Assembly (NCBI GenBank): GCA_017993835.1
Contig: JAGOLX010000009.1
Span: 62,001 to 126,000 of the forward strand
DNA length: 64,000 nt
Source: Phycisphaerae bacterium
GTDB taxonomy: Bacteria; Planctomycetota; Phycisphaerae; Sedimentisphaerales; Anaerobacaceae
Reading direction: 5' to 3'
A model generated the notes under the pieces. That model was not told the origin of the DNA. It did no database searches and saw only the letters and a program-made list of their open reading frames with translations. Each line of letters begins with the position of its first letter. The first letter of the stretch is position 1. The position numbers and the translations under genes were made by a program. Of this stretch, positions 1-10,950 are shown piece by piece.

Positions 1-654
1 ACCTGCGAATTCATGGCGATCACGGACGACAAACGCGTCCGCGACGTTTCTGGCCCTCGCTGCGGGTGTCGCAGCCTGCGGCTGAGGCCGGGTCCGGCGG
101 ATACGGACTAGGTCTGTACTCACCTTCGCACGCGGATGGCGGAGTCGGCGGGCGATGAGATTGGCTTGATTATAGCCTCGCAGAATCCGCCGGGTCCAGT
201 GAAGGGGGACCGGGACGAACAGATCGACGTCGTCGTGAAAGCCGCTGCCCTCGAGCGCTGCCTGCGCCAAGGGCGCCAGCGTGGAGGCAAGCTCGCTGTG
301 GTCGTGCTTGAAGGCCAGGATCATCCGCTGGAGGGTGTCAGTATACACGCCCGCGCGGGCGATCCCGTCGAAGTGGAACTCTTCCGACCGGCAGGCGCCA
401 CAAGCGCCGCCGACGAGGCCGTATCGACTGGCGTCCCGCCCGCAGCGGGGGCAGTAGTCGCCCGCCGTGCAGGTCAGAAGCTCGCTCCAACAGTCCCGGC
501 AGAGCTCGTTGTCCTCGATGCATATGCCCCGGCCGCAGTCGCGGCAGACGGGCGGCCACAACAGATGGCTGACGCCTTGCCACGTCAGCGCGACGACTCG
601 CCCGGCCCGGCCGACGACACCATGGACTCGCGGCAATCCCATGGTCGCCATCAT
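1..654 (-). CDS. comF: ComF family protein, 3' end cut by window edge
   Basis: The reading frame stays open from the tandem ATGs at 654 and 651 to base 1, giving 218 codons. It begins 17 bases after the stop of the prepilin gene, so the two are probably co-transcribed. The N-terminal third carries a zinc-ribbon pattern of paired cysteines (CRDC, CRDC, CPRC, CGAC). The rest has ComF phosphoribosyltransferase-type signatures: GVYTDTLQRMILAFKH, then VPVPLHWTRRILRGYNQANL, then a TRPQ and RARNVADAF stretch. ComF proteins take part in handling incoming DNA during natural transformation in some bacteria; the role here is not shown by sequence. The PRPP-binding loop lies beyond the window. The family call is firm. 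Confidence 0.88.
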   Translation of the reverse strand, partial: MMATMGLPRVHGVVGRAGRVVALTWQGVSHLLWPPVCRDCGRGICIEDNELCRDCWSELLTCTAGDYCPRCGRDASRYGLVGGACGACRSEEFHFDGIARAGVYTDTLQRMILAFKHDHSELASTLAPLAQAALEGSGFHDDVDLFVPVPLHWTRRILRGYNQANLIARRLRHPRAKVSTDLVRIRRTRPQPQAATPAARARNVADAFVVRDRHEFAG

Positions 655-670
655 ACGCGAGAACCCAGAC

Positions 671-1462
671 TCATTTCAAGTCGTAGAGGCCATTGTCGCA
701 GGAGAGGAAGCCGATCCGTACGTCGCCTTTCGCATTGTGGGTGTCCAAGATCCCCTTGGCGGAAGAGTCGGTCCTGGTGTGGACCTCGGACCACGGGCCG
801 GCGTGGCCGTCACAGAACGCGACGTTCGTCTGGCGAAGGTGGCGGTAGCCCTGGGCACCGGCATAGCGGGCCGAGTCGGGCAGGAGCGTGTCGCCTGCGT
901 GAGAGAAGGGGGCTCGCATGTACTTGTTGGCCCCGCCGGCAGGGCACTGGCCGTCGCCAAACAAGGCGGTCTGGGCCGGACGACCCACGCTGGTAGTCTG
1001 CGCCGAATCCGCAGGCGACAACGTGTCGATCAACCCGATGTAGCTGGTGTTGTAGTTGTATCCTGTGTAGGGGTCGGCCATGGTGTTGCTGGCTCCTTTG
1101 AAGGCAGGGCATTGCTGGACCTTCTCGATGGTCCGGCCCGCCCACAGCAGGCCGGGCTCGGCGTGGATGGTCCCGGTCGTCCCCGACCATACCTTCCATG
1201 TGACGAAATCCCAGCAATAGGATCGCACGATGTCGCCTTCCTGCCGGTTGTAGTAGGCCAGCGGGTAGTGTTCGTCGTAGGTCGAAGCGTAGCCGTGGGC
1301 CGCGATGGCCATCTGTCGCAGATTGCTCAGGCAGGCCGTCTTCTGTGCCTGTTGGCGGGCCGTCTGGAGGGAGGGCAGCAGCAGGCCCAGAAGCAGAGCG
1401 GTCGTGGATACGACGACCAGCGTCTCCACCAGGGTGAAGCCTTCACGATGTGCATGCTGTCC
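671..1462 (-). CDS. Prepilin-type secreted protein with H-x9-DG tail
   Basis: 263 residues from ATG 1462. The N-terminus is a class III signal: a nine-residue leader, then FTLVE at the cleavage point and a hydrophobic helix (TTALLLGLLLPSLQ), followed by the AR-x-QA-x-K-x-x-C-x-SNLRQM block common in planctomycete pilin-like proteins. Near the C-terminus HLRQTNVAFCDG matches the H-x9-DG motif that marks a large planctomycete paralogue family. Such proteins are probably processed by a prepilin peptidase and placed in a pseudopilus or at the cell surface. An upstream in-frame ATG at 1495 would give an untypically long leader, so 1462 is preferred. It lies between the cobalamin-controlled secreted protein and comF. 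Confidence 0.85.
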   Translation of the reverse strand, partial: GQHAHREGFTLVETLVVVSTTALLLGLLLPSLQTARQQAQKTACLSNLRQMAIAAHGYASTYDEHYPLAYYNRQEGDIVRSYCWDFVTWKVWSGTTGTIHAEPGLLWAGRTIEKVQQCPAFKGASNTMADPYTGYNYNTSYIGLIDTLSPADSAQTTSVGRPAQTALFGDGQCPAGGANKYMRAPFSHAGDTLLPDSARYAGAQGYRHLRQTNVAFCDGHAGPWSEVHTRTDSSAKGILDTHNAKGDVRIGFLSCDNGLYDLK

Positions 1463-1561
1463 CATCGTCTGCCCTATCCGCATCGTTCGAGGCATCGGCG
1501 GACCGGCTCATGGGACCGGCCCGCCGACGCCCACATTCTCTCTTGTGATTCCCCGGGGATG

Positions 1562-3124
1562 TCAGACCTTTCCCCAGGCGATCGTTCCCAGGTTACTGTT
1601 GACGATTCCGAGATCCGTCTCGTCCACGGTCCCATCGGCGTTGAGATCCGCAGCCGCCGGGACCGCCGGATCGCTGACGGACTTGCCCAGATTGGCGTTG
1701 ACGATGTCCACGTCCTTCTGATCGACGCGGAAATCGCCGTTCACGTCGCCAACCGGCGCGGAGTGCCTGTAATCGCCCGGACAACTCACATCCGCGACGG
1801 CGTCGATCTCGGGGTTTATCCCTGCATGACCCAGGACATCATCGATCCGGACGTATTTGAACCACTTGAGCTGCGTGTCGGGATCGACGGGCAGGTCGAG
1901 CCGGGCTATGTCGTAGCCGGTCCCGCCGGCGGAGTCGCCATAGATCTGCGCTACGCGGGCCACCGAATGCCCGGTCAGATCCGCAAGGGTCAGGTTCGGA
2001 TCGAGCGGCAGGGTCGGATTGGTCGCCTCGGCCCACCACAGATTCGTTTCGCCCACGGAAGTGTCCACATGGCAGGGGTCGTAGACTCGTCCGAGCGTGG
2101 GGGCGAAGCCGTCACAGAACGGGCCATCCTGGGCCTCGGCCGGGAGCCTGATGAAGTTGGCGTCGGTCGCCATGAAGTTCGGATCGGTGGTGAAGCTGTA
2201 CCAGGTGATGCCGTCCTGGCTGACGGACACGACACCCGGCTCGCTGCTGGTCAGATTGCCCACGATGACGTCGGTGGGAGCGACGTTCTCCAGGAACTGC
2301 CCTCCGGCATTCTTCAGACAGGTGTTGCCGAAGACGATGAAATCGATCCCGTAGGGATTGTATGTGTCGTCGCGGACAGGATGATTGAAGGCCAGTGTGA
2401 GCGATCCGCCGTCCCCCAAGAAGACCAGTTCGTGGGAACGAAAGGCCGAGTAGACCGGCACGACCGGGACCGCTGCGCTGGCCGGAGCGAGCCATCCATC
2501 GCCGGTGGTATCGACGGCCGGGCGGCCCAGCGCAGCGTTGGGATCGTCGAAGGCCTTGCCGCTCAGGAAGTCGTTCATCATACCTTGCGGCCGGTAGTCG
2601 ATCCAGGCGGTGGCGAAATCGTTGGCGTCATAGACGTACTGTCCATACCCGGACAGGAAGGGGATCTCCCATTGAGGTTTGGGCCCGTCGTCACGACCGT
2701 AGATCCAGGCATCGGCATCGCCGTGGCGAACGATTCGGTCGGATGCTCCTGTCCAGGAGGAGGCCCAGGCGTCCGTGCTGCCGATATTGTCGTTCCAGTA
2801 GTGCCACCACATCGCCCCTTCGACGTAGCCGACATTGTTGTGATCTTGATAGACGAAGCCCTCCACCGCGATGCCCCAATCGTAGTCCATTCGTACCGTG
2901 ACGAGTTCCGTCTCCGCCTCGATGATATCGAGGAGTCCGATGCCGGTTGTTGTCTCCGACTCGGTCTGGCCGAAACGGACGAGGAACTCGATGCTGAAAC
3001 CGTCCTGCCACTCGATGTAGACATTCGCTTTGTTGACGCCGGCGCCGACCTCGATGAGCTCTGCCGACGCGGTCGTTGTGACCGCCAGCAGGATGCCGAG
3101 GGCGAGCCATATTCCGCGTTTCAT
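1562..3124 (-). CDS. Large secreted protein with dockerin-like C-terminus, under a cobalamin riboswitch
   Basis: 520 residues from ATG 3124, chosen because GGAG lies ten bases upstream and a signal peptide follows at once (MKRGIWLALGILLAVTTTA). Residues 20-150 are Trp/Tyr/Asp rich (for example MWWHYWNDNIG and GDADAWIYG), resembling corrinoid- or cobalt-uptake-associated secreted domains. A middle beta-rich domain has GGSLTLAFNHPV, IDFIVFGNT and a VSQDGITWY pattern. The last 60 residues hold two dockerin/EF-hand-like repeats (DVNGDFRVDQKD and DLNADGTVDETD). Position downstream of a cobalamin aptamer plus terminator suggests a B12-repressed, surface-exposed corrinoid-acquisition protein. That role is inference; the architecture and the riboswitch are visible. 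Confidence 0.8.
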   Translation of the reverse strand: MKRGIWLALGILLAVTTTASAELIEVGAGVNKANVYIEWQDGFSIEFLVRFGQTESETTTGIGLLDIIEAETELVTVRMDYDWGIAVEGFVYQDHNNVGYVEGAMWWHYWNDNIGSTDAWASSWTGASDRIVRHGDADAWIYGRDDGPKPQWEIPFLSGYGQYVYDANDFATAWIDYRPQGMMNDFLSGKAFDDPNAALGRPAVDTTGDGWLAPASAAVPVVPVYSAFRSHELVFLGDGGSLTLAFNHPVRDDTYNPYGIDFIVFGNTCLKNAGGQFLENVAPTDVIVGNLTSSEPGVVSVSQDGITWYSFTTDPNFMATDANFIRLPAEAQDGPFCDGFAPTLGRVYDPCHVDTSVGETNLWWAEATNPTLPLDPNLTLADLTGHSVARVAQIYGDSAGGTGYDIARLDLPVDPDTQLKWFKYVRIDDVLGHAGINPEIDAVADVSCPGDYRHSAPVGDVNGDFRVDQKDVDIVNANLGKSVSDPAVPAAADLNADGTVDETDLGIVNSNLGTIAWGKV

Positions 3125-3244: not shown

Positions 3245-3302
3245 CCCAACCTCCTTTCGGATTGGCCCGCCCTTGTCGCGAGGGCCCGGCCCGCAGGCGC
3301 AC

Positions 3303-3337
3303 AAAAAAAACGCCGTTCCAACGAATCGGAACGGCGT
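3303..3337 (-). terminator. Intrinsic terminator of the cobalamin riboswitch
   Basis: A perfect 10-bp stem (3310-3319 pairing with 3328-3337) with an 8-base loop is followed on the minus strand by eight Ts (3310 to 3303). It sits about 100 bases downstream of the aptamer and about 180 bases before the start of the secreted-protein gene. This is the layout expected for transcription attenuation by B12. Confidence 0.85.
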
Positions 3338-3434
3338 CTCATGCCTGCGTCTTGCACCAGAGCGGCTCAACATGCTTGCCCTGTGCCATCACACGTGCGT
3401 TCCAACTCGCGAGAACACAACAACTTGTGCATTC

Positions 3435-3657
3435 AACCACAGGCAGGTTTTCTGGCTTGCGTCCTACCGAGAGGCTCCTTCCCATTCGCAGGGCGAATAG
3501 TGGATTGGGCGTTCCCCCAGAAGTCAGAGGGCCCGGTGCCTCGGGGATTTCCGAATATTCCTCGGAACAGACGCTCACAGCGGCGCGACCGTCGCGGATT
3601 TTCACCGCGTTCCCATTTGCATATCCCGGAGCCAAAGCTCCGAGACCTGCAGTCGAA
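3435..3657 (-). promoter_or_regulatory. Cobalamin riboswitch aptamer
   Basis: On the minus strand the conserved landmarks appear in the right order: GGTGAAAATCCGCGACGG (family core GGUGaaAAUCCgG), then GCCGCTGTGAG, then GGGAAGGAG, and finally an AGCCAGAAAACCTGCC closing segment that matches the AGUCAGGAgACCUGCC end of the B12 box. The opening AGGT near 3650 can pair with the closing ACCT. Spacing and order fit RF00174. It lies 3' of a strong promoter and 5' of a terminator, so it should switch off the downstream secreted-protein gene when adenosylcobalamin is plentiful. Confidence 0.92.
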
Positions 3658-3684
3658 TCACCTACTTGGCAAAGAACGAGAGCG

Positions 3685-3713
3685 ATGCTAACGACGAGCA
3701 GGAGGGCTGTCAA
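3685..3713 (-). promoter_or_regulatory. Sigma-70-type promoter driving the riboswitch transcript
   Basis: TTGACA (3708-3713) and TAGCAT (3685-3690) are separated by 17 bases on the minus strand. Transcription would start near 3678, about 20 bases before the aptamer. Confidence 0.7.
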
Positions 3714-3834
3714 CAATGAAATCCGTCCCCAGAATCGGAGATTCATGCGGAATCCTGGTGGGAGGCGGGAGGGACCGCGATCCGGGCAGGCTCCTCCGAC
3801 CTGCCCGGAATACGCGGCGAGACTGGTCAGAAGG

Positions 3835-6027
3835 TCAAGAGTTGAAGGCGTCCATCGATTTGTTGCTCTCGATCGGGATCCTCCGTTCAGGCGACGATTG
3901 GGCAGACTTCTTGCCGCTGTGAGCAATCTGATGGAACGTCTCGTGCGATTTCCCGAGACCTTTGCTGCGGGTCATGGTGTGCTCGGCGCTCTGGCGCCCG
4001 AAGTGGCGCGAGGAACCCTGCTGGCTTGCCTCGAATCCCTTCCGGCCTTGGCTGTGCTGTTGTGAATGACAGCCCCCAATCAGGGCAGCCAGCGTGCCGA
4101 CCAGGTCGTTCATGGCCGATGCCTGGGCGGTGAGTTGCTCGGACGCGCTGGCCGACTCCTCCGCGTTGGCCGCGTTCTGCTGCGTGACCTTGTCCATCTG
4201 AGCGATCGCCGTATTGACCTGGTCGATCCCCTGGGCCTGTTCCTGCGAGGCGGCCGCGATCTCGCTGACCAGATCGGTGGTCTTGCCGACGCTCCGGACG
4301 ATTTCGTCCAGAACCTTGGCGACCTCGCCGGCGATGCCGACGCCGTTGTTCGAGTTCTTGACCGATTCCTGGATCATGTTGGCGGTGTTCTTGGCGGCCT
4401 CGGCCGATCTCATGGCGAGATTGCGGACCTCCTCGGCGACCACGGCAAATCCCTTGCCCGCCTCGCCCGCTCGGGCGGCCTCGACTGCGGCGTTGAGGGC
4501 CAGCAGGTTGGTCTGGAAGGCGATCTCGTCGATGACCTTGATGATGTTCGCGGTTTCATCGGAGCTCTTCTGGATCTGCTGGATGGCCGCATTCATCCGA
4601 GACATGGCTTCCGTTCCAGTGCTTGCGGACTCCCTCGCCTCGGTGGAGAGCGAATTGGCCTTCTGGGCACTGTCGGCGTTCTGCTTGGTCATGGAGGCCA
4701 TCTCTTCGAGGCTGCTGGAGGTTTCCTGGAGCCCCGCGGCCTGTTCGGTGGCGCCTTCCGCCAGCGACTGGGAGGCTGCTGAGACCTGTCCGGCGGCTGC
4801 GGCGACCTGCTCGGCGCCCGCCGAGAGGTCCGCAACGACCCGCGCGATCTTGCCGGTGATGCTGCGGGCCATGAGGAACCAGACGACGATCGCGGCGACC
4901 AGGGCCCCAAGCGAGACTCCCGCGAGAATCCGGTTGCTGGCAGCGCCGATGGCAATCACCTGATCCCTGGCCTCGTAGAACTCGTCGATGTAGGAACCGA
5001 CGCCAATGATCCAATCCCAGGGCTCGAAGTAGACAAGCCGTGCGATCTTCTCGCGAGCGGTGGCATCGCCGTCGTTCTTCCAGGGATAGCGTTGTTCGCC
5101 GATTTCCCTTTCCTTCAGAGTAGTTGCTGTTGCACAGATCTTCTGAATGAACGGCGAACCGCCGGCATCCTTGGCCTCCCAGATGCACTCTCCGTCGCGT
5201 TTGCCGCCAGCGGAGATGACGTAGTTGCCCTTGGAGTCCAAGACATAGACGTACCCGGTCTTGCCGACCTTCGCGGCCATGATAGACGTGCGCAGCGAGG
5301 TGACACTCTCCTGGGGCACGCCGACGAAGAGCATGCCGACGACCTTCTTGTTCTGGTCGAGGATGGGCTCGTACGCCGTGATGTACCATCTGTTCACGAC
5401 GAACGCCCGCCCCTGGTAGGTCTCACCCTGGAGCACGCGGGAGATCACGGAGTCCGGCTTGCCGTCCGGGTGGGTCTTCGGGATGTACGTCCCAATCGCC
5501 CGCGAGCCGTCCAGCTTCTGAACGTTGGTGCAGACGCGGAGCATGTCTCCTGCGTCATTCATCCTCTGGAAGATGGTGCAGGTCCCGCCGATGAGCTTCT
5601 GCGTCTCGTCCACGACCGGGGCCGTCGTGCTCATGTCGGAGACTTTTCCGAACCAGGTTTCGCCTGCCATCATCTTGGGCAACTCGACCCGCAGAGAGGT
5701 CTTCGATTCCTGGTTCACTGCCTCCCACGGCACAGTCTCCGGGGCGAAGTGGATATCGCCTGCGTGCAAAAGGACACGACGAGCCACATTGAGCGAGGAC
5801 GTCACGTTGCTCTGCAGCATCTCCTGCTGAGCCTTGCACATTCCGTAGATGTTTTGCGCGATGTGATCGAGGTCGGCATAGGCCAGATCGGTGTTGCCCT
5901 TCTCCGCGACCTCCGTCATTCGTCCGTTCTGGGTGAAGATCACGACGGAGATGGCCACGAGCGGAATGGCTGTCACCAGGATGCCGATGGCCAACAGTTT
6001 GGTTTGCAGCTTCACGTTCTTGAGCAT
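3835..6027 (-). CDS. Methyl-accepting chemotaxis protein with Cache-type sensor
   Basis: 730 residues. The N-terminal membrane helix ([19 protein letters not shown]) is followed by a periplasmic region to about residue 355 that reads like a Cache_3/Cache_2 sensor ([47 protein letters not shown]). A second helix near 370-390 leads to a short linker and a long methyl-accepting coiled coil. The signalling tip contains [20 protein letters not shown] and [11 protein letters not shown]. Cache domains bind small organic acids or amino acids. There is no NWETF-like C-terminal tether. It is the last gene of the module cheW - porin - receptor, and its signalling half closely resembles the second receptor at 8983-10950. 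Neither cheA nor cheR/cheB is present. Confidence 0.93.
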
Positions 6028-6080
6028 TGGGCTTTCCTTTCACCGGGGGTAATCAGCATGCCCTCTGGCACGCCGGCTCT

Positions 6081-7382
6081 TCAGAATGAGTAGATGAACG
6101 ACAGTTGCGCCCGGATGTCGTCGGCGTCGCCGTCGCCGCTGTAATGCGTGTTCCAGCGGGACAGTTCGAAGCCCGCCTGGGCGTTCCTGGTCCATGAGTA
6201 GAGGACGTTTGCGAAGATGGAGGAATTCAGCGTTCTCGCTCCGGCGGCCACGTCGTCGGCATTCACGTCATCGACGCCGGCGCCCAGGTTGAACGCCCAT
6301 TGGGACCAGGGTCCCAGAGACGCGGCGATCCAGCCGCCTTTGCTGCGGATCTCCTTCAGGGAGCCTGTGTTGACCCCCTGGTTGATCCCGCCGTAGTAGG
6401 CGTTGAGGTTCTCGCCGGAGAACAACTCGCCCAACAAGGTGAGTTTCTTGCACACAGGTATGGTCGCGTCCAGGCACACCATCCAGGTGTCAAAGTCCGT
6501 GTTTCTGCCGGTGGCGTCGAGGTCATACTCCTCCCGACCGCTGTGGCCGCCCAGACCGATGACCGTTGGCTTCGGACCAAGGAGCGGGAAGGCCACGCTG
6601 ACGCGCCCCTGAGCGGTGGGAAGTCCTGCGTCCTCGCCGGTTTCCGAGTTGGCGGCATCGGTTCTTCCGATGGTCCGTGCGACGGCGGCCTCGAACTTCA
6701 ACGACGTCTTCTCGTTGAGCGCGAGGCTCTTGGTCAGGCGGAACTGCGGCCGGCGGTAGCCGGTGTTGCCGGCATCCCACATCACGGAGTAGTTCAGCGT
6801 GTTCGGAGACAGAGGCGAGACCACGTCCCAGGTCTGGCCTGCGAGCAGGGAGAAGTCCGACTTGGGCCACAGCAGAGTCAGGTAGGCGTGGCGCATCTGG
6901 AGCTTGGCCTTGTTCTCGTCGGCGTAGTTGCCGAAGAAATCGATTTCGATCTTGCCCGACGCCTTCATCGTCTCGCTCTCGGGACCGCTGATGTTCAGAC
7001 CCAGGCGAGTCTGGTTGGCCGTCAGGTTGAACTCGGCGTCGTTCTTCTTCGTGGCCTCCGAATCGACATACAGGACGAAATTGCCCGTGCTGGTCCGGGA
7101 CGAGTCCCGTGAGGCGTCGCCCTTGACATATCCGTACAACTGGATGTCCAGGTTGGACCAGAGGCTCTTCTTCGCGGGCAGCTCTTTGGGGGCGGCAGGC
7201 TTGGCGTCCGATGCCGGCGTTGCAGCCTCTTTCTTGAGATCTGCCACCTGCTTCTCCAACTGCTCGATTCGGTCCTGCAGCGAGGGATCCTGCGTTGTGG
7301 CGCCCAGGCCGACGCGTGAGAGCCCCAGAAGGCCCAGGAGCCCCATGGCCGCCCAAATGTATGGTGACTTCCGATGTTCCAT
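6081..7382 (-). CDS. DcaP-like trimeric outer-membrane porin
   Basis: 433 residues. A signal peptide (GLLGLLGLSRVGLGA) precedes a short trimerising coiled coil (LQDRIEQLEKQVADLKKEA) and a linker rich in Ala, Pro and Lys. The rest is an amphipathic beta-barrel: IQLYGYVKGDASRDSS, ARLGLNISG-type strands (TRLGLNISGPES), LLAGQTWDVVSPL, and a terminal aromatic (FIYSF) typical of BAM substrates. The coiled coil followed by a YGYVK start and a GQTWDVVSPL segment fits DcaP-like porins, which take up anionic aromatic or dicarboxylic solutes. The start ATG 7382 overlaps the last base of the cheW stop, so translation is probably coupled. A porin inside a chemotaxis operon suggests that uptake and tactic response share one ligand. 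Confidence 0.8.
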   Translation of the reverse strand: MEHRKSPYIWAAMGLLGLLGLSRVGLGATTQDPSLQDRIEQLEKQVADLKKEAATPASDAKPAAPKELPAKKSLWSNLDIQLYGYVKGDASRDSSRTSTGNFVLYVDSEATKKNDAEFNLTANQTRLGLNISGPESETMKASGKIEIDFFGNYADENKAKLQMRHAYLTLLWPKSDFSLLAGQTWDVVSPLSPNTLNYSVMWDAGNTGYRRPQFRLTKSLALNEKTSLKFEAAVARTIGRTDAANSETGEDAGLPTAQGRVSVAFPLLGPKPTVIGLGGHSGREEYDLDATGRNTDFDTWMVCLDATIPVCKKLTLLGELFSGENLNAYYGGINQGVNTGSLKEIRSKGGWIAASLGPWSQWAFNLGAGVDDVNADDVAAGARTLNSSIFANVLYSWTRNAQAGFELSRWNTHYSGDGDADDIRAQLSFIYSF

Positions 7383-7942
7383 CACGATGTCCTTTCACTT
7401 GCGTCTGTAGTCTGATCTGCGGTTGCACTATCGATCTGGCCGCAGCCAAGGCCCTCCGGGCCGCCACCGAGGACGCGGTCGATATCCAGAAGAATTTTCA
7501 CCGATTCTCCGACCTTGCCCATGCCCAGGATGAAGTCGGTGTTCACCGAGGCGCCGAACTGAGGTGCCTCCTCAATGTTGCCGCCGGGGATATCCAGCAC
7601 CTCCTGGACGCGATCCACGACGATGCCTGTGCTGAACTTACGTCCGTTGTGCGCGATCTCGACGACGATGATGCAGGTTTCGTCCGTCACGTCCGCGGTG
7701 TCCATGCCGAACTTGGTCCTGAGATCGACGACCGGAATGACCTGCCCTCGGAGATTGATGACGCCCTTAACGTAGTGGGGCGTCTGCGGCAGCGCAGTGA
7801 CCTGGATGTACCCGATGATCTCGCGGACCTTCAGGATCTCCAGGCCGTACTCCTCATGGGCCAGGGCGAAAGTCAGGTACTTGCCTTCCTTGTCCAAGAT
7901 CACTCCGTTGCGGCCATCCATCTGTGGTGCGGTTGCAGCCAT
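7382..7942 (-). CDS. cheW: CheW-type chemotaxis coupling protein (module 1)
   Basis: 186 residues. Residues 20-165 are a complete CheW SH3-like domain: YLTFALAHEEYGLEILKVRE, then GVINLRGQVIPVVDLRTKFG and SVKILLDIDRVL. CheW links receptors to the kinase CheA. A Ser/Thr-rich tail of about 20 residues follows the domain. It is first in the operon cheW - porin - receptor and divergent from the XRE-cupin regulator at 8285. It is closely similar to the second cheW at 11050-11541. Confidence 0.95.
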   Translation of the reverse strand: MAATAPQMDGRNGVILDKEGKYLTFALAHEEYGLEILKVREIIGYIQVTALPQTPHYVKGVINLRGQVIPVVDLRTKFGMDTADVTDETCIIVVEIAHNGRKFSTGIVVDRVQEVLDIPGGNIEEAPQFGASVNTDFILGMGKVGESVKILLDIDRVLGGGPEGLGCGQIDSATADQTTDASERTS

Positions 7943-8284
7943 GACGAAGTCTCCTCAACATGTATTTCCAGGTGCAGCCAGTGACAGACCGAGCAAGTCG
8001 GGTCCGTCGGGAATTGCCACGCCCCCAATTGCAGTCGTCCGAGAGGACGGTGTCGTGTTCACCCGACCAGCAGTCGCCGTCCCGACGAGGAAGCGGCGTA
8101 TGTAAAATCGGCATGCGGGCGTGCAAAGTTAAACAATATGAGGAAAAGTCACAAATAGTAGCCGCACTGAATTGTCAAGTTGGGCACGTACGTCCTGTAA
8201 ACGGTCTTTCTTCGTTGACAAGGGGATAAGACGGCCCTATTCTTGCCACATTCCGTTTTGGCGTGCCTGTTGAGAGGTTTGCTG
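7943..8284 (+). other. Divergent control region between cheW (minus) and XRE-cupin regulator (plus)
   Basis: 342 bases with no convincing gene. It holds the plus-strand promoter 8215-8243. On the minus strand a TTGACA at 8173-8178 is a candidate -35 for cheW but lacks a well-spaced -10. The 10-mer ATTGCCACGC at 8013-8022 recurs in the matching control region of the second module (11709-11718), and a related TTGCCACA overlaps the end of the regulator's -10 (8243-8250). These are possible regulator binding sites. Confidence 0.4.
8215..8243 (+). promoter_or_regulatory. Promoter of XRE-cupin regulator 1
   Basis: TTGACA (8215-8220) and TATTCT (8238-8243) are 17 bases apart, about 40 bases upstream of the ATG at 8285. 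Confidence 0.6.
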
Positions 8285-8982: not shown

Positions 8983-10950
8983 TTACGTGTTGAAGTGGCC
9001 CATTTCCTCATCGTCGCTGAGCGGGATGGCCTTTTCCTTCGCAGGAGTTGCCGACTGCGTTGTCTTCTTTCGAGGCTTTCCCTCTGCGATGCTATGGAAG
9101 ACGTGATCGGATTGCTGGAGTTTCGGCTCCTTGGTCCGTCGCACGGTCTTCTTGGTCTCGGTGCTCCGGGCAGCGCCGCCCACGAGGGAGACCAGATCCG
9201 CGACGACGTCGTTCATCGACTCCGCCTGCGAACTCAGTTCCTCGGAAGCGCTGGCGCTCTCTTCGGCGTTGGCCGCATTCTGCTGGGTGACCTTGTCCAT
9301 CTGAGCGATGGCCGTGTTGACCTGGTCGATCCCCTGGGCCTGCTCCTGGCAGGCGGCAGCGATCTCGCTGACGAGGTCGGTGGTCTTGCCGACGCTCTGG
9401 ACGATCTCCTCGAGGACCTTGCTGACCTCGGTGGCGATGTCCACGCCGTTCTTGGAGTTCTTGACGGATTCCTCGATCATGTTGGCAGTGTCCTTGGCCG
9501 CTTCCGCCGACCGCATGGCGAGATTGCGGACCTCTTCGGCGACCACGGCGAAGCCCTTGCCCGCTTCGCCCGCCCGGGCGGCCTCGACCGCGGCGTTGAG
9601 GGCCAGCAGGTTGGTCTGGAAGGCGATCTCGTCGATGACCTTGATGATCTTGGAGGTCTCGTCGGAGCTCTTCTGGATCTCGTGGATCGCCTCGTTCATC
9701 CGCTGCATGGACTCGGTGCCGGTGTTGGCGGAGGTGCGGGCCTCGGTGGCCAGGGTGTTCGCCTGCTGAGCGTTGTCCGCGTTCTGCTTGGTCATGGAGG
9801 CCATCTCTTCGAGACTGGACGAGGTTTCCTCGAGGCCGGCGGCCTGTTCCGTGGCGCCTTCCGCGAGGGACTGCGACGCGGCAGACACCTGGCTGGAGGC
9901 GGCGGCCACCTGCTCGGAGCCGCTCGTCAGTGCATCGATGATCCGTTTGATGGGCTTGATGATGCTCATGGTGATCAAGACCGCCAGGACGACGCCCAAG
10001 ACGATGCCGGCGATGGCCATGGTGATCATCAGGGTATTGGTCTGGGCAACCGTACTCTCCATCTTGTTCTTCAGAGACGTCTGGAGGCGGTTGATGGTAT
10101 CCACAATCGCCTTGGCGGCGGTTGCCATCTCGGCCAGTGCGGTTTCCCGTGCCACCATTCCATCGTGGTACTGGCGACCTGCGTCATCGTAACTGTTGAT
10201 GTAGCCTGCGATGTTCTGGGCAACGACTTCGACCTTGGCGTCGCCCTTGACCAGAGTCGTCCAGGCCTCCACGCTGGTCTTCACCTTGGCCAGTTGCTTC
10301 TGGTAGTTGGCCCACTGCTCCTCCTTGTTGGTTGCCAGCAGGTAGACGGCACTGACCCGCAGGAGGAGGAACTCCTGGAAGACCTGCTCATCGAGCTGCG
10401 TGCCGATCTTGGTCCATCGGATGATGTCGTCGGCGTTCTTGGCCTCTTCGGCTGCCTTCCTCGCCGGCTCGATAACGTCGGTGATTACTGCGGAGACGGC
10501 CTTCGTCACGTCCCCACCGATTTTGCTCCAACTGGCGAACGCCGTGTCCCTCATCTTACGGGCGTCCTCCTGATGCACGAAAGACGTCAGATAGGGAGGC
10601 ATCTTGCTGCTGGCCTCGGCGACGATCGCCCGGTCGCTGCTGGACAGCCCCTTGGTGTTCTCCAACTCCTGAAGCTTGGCGGTCAAGGCGGTGTAGGCGT
10701 CGTGCCACTTCTCCGCCGCGTTCTTCTCCTCATTGGCGGCCTTCTCGAATCCTTGAATGGTGAAGTCCTTGCGGAGGGATGCGCATTGATTCAGCCCTGC
10801 GAGGCAGTCATTGCCGGCCGTGTTCAGATTGGCATTGGTGGCTACGTTGGTCAGTCCATTCCACCCGACGAGGCCCAGCACGCCGGAGATGACGACCAGA
10901 ACGCCAAACCCTATGCCCATTTTTGTCGCGAGTTTCATTTTCTTGAACAT
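8983..10950 (-). CDS. Methyl-accepting chemotaxis protein with helical-bundle sensor
   Basis: 655 residues. One N-terminal helix ([19 protein letters not shown]) and a second near 310-330 ([20 protein letters not shown]) bracket an all-helical periplasmic region of about 270 residues, longer than a simple four-helix bundle and possibly a helical bimodular (HBM) sensor. Two cysteines occur early in it ([10 protein letters not shown]). The cytoplasmic half matches the receptor at 3835-6027 almost block for block, including [20 protein letters not shown]. It follows the second cheW by 99 bases. Because the sensor halves differ in fold while the signalling halves match, the two receptors look like paralogues that exchanged sensors. 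Confidence 0.92.

Follow-up and report, generated by a model that had tools for sequence, protein, structure and literature searches.

The operon described here probably serves, in our opinion, for scavenging corrinoids at the cell surface in Planctomycetota: it would be off with adenosylcobalamin, whereas in scarcity a secreted protein made of two domains, A and B, and a dockerin would be produced along with a pilin-like protein. It is very probably an alternative and so far unstudied planctomycete route to extracellular B12 capture, because at the same spot, and governed by the same switch, near relatives have a protein proven to bind B12. The proposal is built on the sequence of the window, which is the whole 64-kb stretch of DNA that was analysed, and on its comparison with related genomes.

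Riboswitch leader and transcription unit

The features of the operon and its leader are the following:
3685..3713 (-), sigma-70-like promoter, TTGACA-17-TAGCAT, matching the consensus at 10/12 positions (chance alone would give 0.4 such sites in the region)
3425..3665 (-), cobalamin riboswitch aptamer RF00174, 73.8 bits, E 2.6e-16
3392..3420 (-), conserved hairpin GUUCUCGCGAGUUGGAACGCA, 3' of the aptamer, near-invariant in eight leaders from both cassette types
3300..3340 (-), intrinsic terminator, 15-pair stem and U tract, with equivalents in the seven compared leaders
1562..3124 (-), secreted A-B-dockerin fusion protein of 520 aa, from the CDS and the domain reading
2675..3061 (-), domain A, residues about 22-150, candidate corrinoid-binding domain of a new family, from relatives' loci and profile searches
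1769..2635 (-), domain B, residues about 164-452, new family, from relatives' loci and profile searches
1589..1750 (-), dockerin type I domain, residues 459-512, Dockerin_1 PF00404, E 1.3e-8
671..1495 (-), pilin/pseudopilin-like protein, second operon gene, with N-methylation motif and DUF1559

The near-consensus cobalamin aptamer noticed in the initial annotation was confirmed by a covariance search of the window, in which RF00174 was matched on the minus strand over its full length (positions 1-189 of 189), scoring 73.8 bits where the gathering score is 31.5 bits. It is the sole Rfam match within the window and one of two RF00174 matches in the whole 6.4-Mb genome. Where a promoter was claimed upstream of it, a promoter-like site is present (3713-3685, minus strand). 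The leader was aligned with those of four congeners carrying the other gene cassette and three relatives carrying the same one (n=8), and the hairpin arms GUUCUCGCGA..UGGAACGCA are nearly invariant downstream of the aptamer, with a strong terminator 50-80 nt past the hairpin. A perfect 10-bp terminator had been proposed for the window; the terminator exists (3340-3307, minus strand), but its stem actually has 15 pairs, followed by a U tract. The terminator 5' arm contains CGUUCC, the complement of GGAACG on the 3' side of the window hairpin, and for this reason GGAACG is probably an antiterminator element. When the window leader is folded without the terminator 3' arm, GGAACG pairs with the terminator 5' arm. 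Terminator and probable antiterminator are present and conserved, and control of the gene is putatively ligand-responsive.

The 520-residue secreted protein had been correctly placed directly downstream of the aptamer and terminator. Its CDS (3124-1562, minus strand) has a Shine-Dalgarno-like GGAG 9 nt upstream of the ATG, and a hydrophobic signal peptide is evident from the sequence. The pilin-like gene at 671-1495 (minus strand), absent from the initial annotation, belongs to the same unit; 66 bp with no terminator within separate it from the 520-aa CDS. Its product is a prepilin-type (DUF1559) protein, scoring 28.3 bits for DUF1559 (cut-off 23.3) and, with the sequence REGFTLVETLVVVST, 19.5 bits for N_methyl, slightly below the cut-off of 21.2. 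Nearly all relatives also have a pilin-like gene directly downstream of A/B, and a pilin subtype ending in GFLSxDNxxYDLK accompanies the A/B cassettes.

Other genes surround this unit. A ComF-family gene lies downstream of the pilin (1-650, minus strand, running off the window) and has counterparts in 15 loci, covering both types of cassette; it was considered as an operon member and counted only as a neighbour, because the closest A-B relatives (L033, L034, L035) do not have it alongside. On the other side, two closely spaced genes for methyl-accepting chemotaxis proteins (3835-6027 and 8983-10950, minus strand) form, with adjoining CheW-like and XRE/cupin genes, a tandem-duplicated block common to congeners. 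Elsewhere in the genome, the second cobalamin riboswitch (G000:C51:33930-34055, i.e. L054 13931-14056; 86.4 bits, core only) precedes a gene for cob(I)yrinic acid a,c-diamide adenosyltransferase. Judging by its gene content, the organism uses corrinoids, since one FecCD permease and 14 B12-binding-domain matches are found in the genome.

Domains A and B and their loci in relatives

Homologues of the 520-aa protein were searched for in 60 relatives, and loci were then read. From these the protein is seen to be a fusion of two domains, because in relatives A and B are separate neighbouring genes. Domain A, of about 140 aa and rich in aromatic residues, is elsewhere mostly its own gene of ~180 aa with a PEP-CTERM tail, whereas domain B, of about 290 aa, is usually encoded by its own gene of ~320 aa ending in dockerin-like repeats. 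In one genome (G015) domain A is duplicated, with the order A-A-B. The dockerin-like C-terminus of the window protein, already suspected, is recognised by Pfam as Dockerin_1 at residues 459-512, with 35.3 bits against a gathering score of 22.9 bits; among relatives the C-terminus varies between dockerin-like repeats and PEP-CTERM.

Neither A nor B has a match in Pfam, NCBIfam or PADLOC, and profile searches detected no sequence similarity of either to a known B12 binder. Profile comparison gave no homology of domain A to DUF4465, to B or to X, the protein encoded next to DUF4465 in congeners, and nothing meaningful came up when profiles of A, B and X were searched against the PDB. AlphaFold models, built from three input sequences, had a pLDDT of 33 for domain A and 38 for domain B, too poor for fold comparison.

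A link to DUF4430 and transcobalamin had been put forward in the initial annotation. In its developed form, domain A would be a divergent transcobalamin-like beta-grasp (DUF4430/SLBB) whose B12 site would share its ancestry with the one in animal transcobalamin and intrinsic factor, which we regard as possible but rather doubtful. When a profile of 25 domain A sequences was aligned to planctomycete DUF4430, the alignment was collinear and full-length (hhalign P 7e-4, probability 26%) and was equalled by none of 300 column shuffles, and the transcobalamin-like clade is reported to be common in planctomycetes (PMC1796856). This alignment nevertheless stays below any accepted homology threshold, Pfam DUF4430 (PF14478) matches no domain A and is present in 0/41 relatives, and the AlphaFold result gives no reliable fold for domain A. 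Planctomycete DUF4430 genes were also considered as possible sharers of the cobalamin riboswitch, and this was rejected, with no RF00174 in the stretch searched at their loci. The original link did not hold up at Pfam level, and the resemblance serves as a suggestive lead only.

RF00174 lies upstream and on the same strand in 38 of the 39 domain-B loci read, the sole exception being L112, where the contig ends 2 bp beyond the match. This cannot be a chance association, because there are only about two such riboswitches per genome. Where domain A occurs without B, the order is riboswitch, A and pilin in four loci (L152, L156, L157, L159), and no RF00174 was found within the stretch searched in three others (L153, L155, L158). 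The genes downstream in L156 were considered as a TonB receptor and rejected, being read by eye as HtrA-like proteases.

As first described, no transporter or B12 synthesis gene lies alongside in the window, but several relatives differ in this respect. Downstream of the pilin come, in L045, a periplasmic binding protein (PF01497, BtuF-like), an ATPase and a FecCD permease and, in L115, CobT, CobS and a BtuF-like protein, while L035, which encodes the closest relative found of the 520-aa protein (62%), has CobQ, CobT, CobS, a FecCD permease and an ATPase on the opposite strand. A locus of the DUF4465 type, L093, is likewise linked to corrinoid transport or salvage genes. One genome (G048) carries two separate A/B/pilin riboswitch operons, L049 and L115, the latter running into cobT, cobS and the btuF-like gene. 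In six further loci under a cobalamin riboswitch (L053, L055, L116, L121, L122, L123) a propeller-like secreted protein, with a PQQ_2 match in L116, replaces domain A beside B. From weak profile matches and context, this combination may be a third state of the slot, formally like BtuG.

DUF4465 and cassette exchange at the locus

DUF4465 is the family of BtuJ, for which B12 binding has been shown in eight distant members (PMC13398666) and also in Bacteroides (PMC12751083). It is matched in 21 of 41 relatives, and PF14717 has no match anywhere in the genome studied here. Not one of the 41 relatives has both DUF4465 and domain B, all 16 genomes with domain B being devoid of DUF4465 (Fisher p 5e-8, a value not corrected for kinship). 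Both cassette types occur within each of four families (f1, f2, f4, f5). The exclusion extends across the phylum: in a sample of 343 genomes, DUF4465 is found in 8, domain B in 22 and domain A in 16, and DUF4465 co-occurs with A or B in none.

The DUF4465 genes share the setting of the A/B genes. Of 19 such loci, 16 have RF00174 upstream, and in the remaining three the sequence is interrupted by a contig end or by a stretch of N. In congeners the DUF4465 genes are followed by a gene of ~370 aa, X, and then by a pilin gene. Distant homology links X to domain B (hhalign 98.4%, E 4e-15), and the relatives' DUF4465 proteins match the solved B12-binding DUF4465 structures 9hmu (E 5e-41) and 9fct (E 5e-31). 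Congeners often have DUF4465 in tandem, doubled within a single protein, or as a fusion with X (L097, L103 and others), which mirrors the A-A-B and A-B fusions.

The comparison with the congener G005 locates the replacement. A continuous alignment (78.6%) covers window positions 3387-7958, with the riboswitch, the chemotaxis receptor and beyond, and a second one covers -135 to 505, in the ComF-like gene; between these blocks nothing aligns apart from 100 bp of the pilin start. The comparisons with G001, G004 and G007 agree with this as far as their contigs reach. This spot, with the same riboswitch and flanking genes around it, is occupied in the congeners by DUF4465, the distant relative of domain B and a pilin of another subtype. 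A tblastn search with the 520-aa protein found no match in seven congener loci. The window pilin is only 26-30% identical to the pilins at the congener loci. In the pilin tree, sequences cluster by cassette type, A/B versus DUF4465, and the window pilin groups with those of L035, L033 and L034 (100/99 support), within a clade that holds all A/B pilins. From the alignment gap, the tblastn result, and the pilin identities and tree, it follows that the aptamer and flanks were kept and the coding cassette, pilin included, was exchanged. This looks like the in-place swap of one corrinoid-capture cassette for another, capture being putative on the A/B side. The direction was presumably from the DUF4465 cassette to the A-B-pilin cassette, since the other congeners carry DUF4465.

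Proposed function and comparison with known systems

With regard to the direction of control, we infer that cobalamin turns the operon off. With enough adenosylcobalamin, the aptamer would fold, the hairpin would be kept and the terminator would form. When corrinoids are scarce, the free aptamer would let GGAACG pair with the terminator 5' arm, which would give read-through and turn the operon on. The cell would then secrete the A-B-dockerin protein along with the dedicated pilin-like protein, domains A and/or B would capture the corrinoid outside the cell, and the captured corrinoid would be handed towards an uptake system (ABC transporter) encoded elsewhere in the genome. The pilin might contribute as an appendage or as a secretion helper, and the A-B trap would be functionally equivalent to DUF4465-X. 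The initial annotation had already suggested a secreted corrinoid-capture protein made in B12 scarcity. The context supports it well (the conserved riboswitch, the btu/cob genes in relatives and the replacement of DUF4465 at the same locus); binding by A/B, the surface location, the hand-over and the role of the pilin are inferred. A more specific version, to which we give a little less than even credence, is that domain A, with or without B, forms an unrecognised extracellular corrinoid-binding family that works with a dedicated pseudopilin, either in a capture appendage or through pilin-assisted secretion, and that, under a riboswitch that stayed conserved, has been repeatedly swapped with DUF4465.

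Genes for B12-independent isozymes or cobalt transporters are in some cases under a cobalamin riboswitch. The operon could by analogy be B12-controlled and bind no corrinoid, its task being to capture cobalt or another nutrient, or to attach the cell to particles or to neighbours that produce B12; no relatives of A and B are known, and the dockerin and pilin could serve adhesion. We think this unlikely in view of the in-place replacement of B12-binding DUF4465 under the same riboswitch, the mutual exclusion of DUF4465 and A/B, and the operon linkage to btuF/D/C and cobT/S. Highly improbable is a cellulosome-like assembly with the dockerin on cohesin scaffolds and an incidental riboswitch link: the dockerin is real at Pfam level and 13 dockerin matches occur in the genome, but cohesin (PF00963) has no match in this genome, which is 99% complete, and the riboswitch is kept in 38/39 loci while the C-terminus switches between dockerin and PEP-CTERM. 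The docking to a partner through the dockerin suggested at first is unsupported for the same reasons, the lack of cohesin and the variable C-terminus.

Corrinoid scavenging by the A/B operon, our preferred reading, must be set against what is known. Extracellular B12 capture under riboswitch control has precedents, nearly all of them in Bacteroides (BtuG/H/J/K). In searchable papers no description of the A/B/pilin operon was found, and the two domains, their partnership with a pilin and the exchange of cassettes seem to be undescribed there. For Planctomycetota, the locus suggests that two protein families so far unannotated, and one pilin subtype, serve the same task, and it offers a place where one capture cassette seems to have been swapped for another with the switch retained. 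Besides, it provides concrete proteins for testing, with the DUF4465 proteins of sister genomes as positive control.

Among the closest known systems is BtuJ/DUF4465 (PF14717, IPR027828), which is secreted, controlled by a cobalamin riboswitch and btu-linked, and which in congeners fills the same slot between riboswitch and pilin gene. However, no sequence similarity connects A or B with DUF4465, and the Bacteroides operons encode lipoproteins with TonB receptors, no pilin being described there (PMC12751083). The surface lipoproteins BtuG, BtuH and BtuK of Bacteroides thetaiotaomicron resemble the A/B proteins in multi-domain corrinoid capture at the surface under a riboswitch, putative for A/B. 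The BtuGH fusion joins two capture domains as the A-B fusion may do, and there is a formal likeness to BtuG in the PQQ-type or other propeller-like protein adjoining B in some relatives. Unlike them, A and B have no detectable homology to any solved structure, and the A/B proteins are secreted with dockerin or PEP-CTERM tails instead of being lipoproteins. The transcobalamin-like SLBB beta-grasp (DUF4430, PF14478) has motifs suggestively collinear with domain A, but the similarity is not significant, there is no Pfam match, and DUF4430 loci are not riboswitch-linked within the stretch searched. Finally, the downstream gene is, by Pfam, one of the DUF1559/H-X9-DG pilin-like proteins of Planctomycetota, with the difference that the operon pilin falls into subclades that match the type of cassette and remain associated with the B12 operon, which gives a first lead to the function of one subclade of these very abundant pilins.
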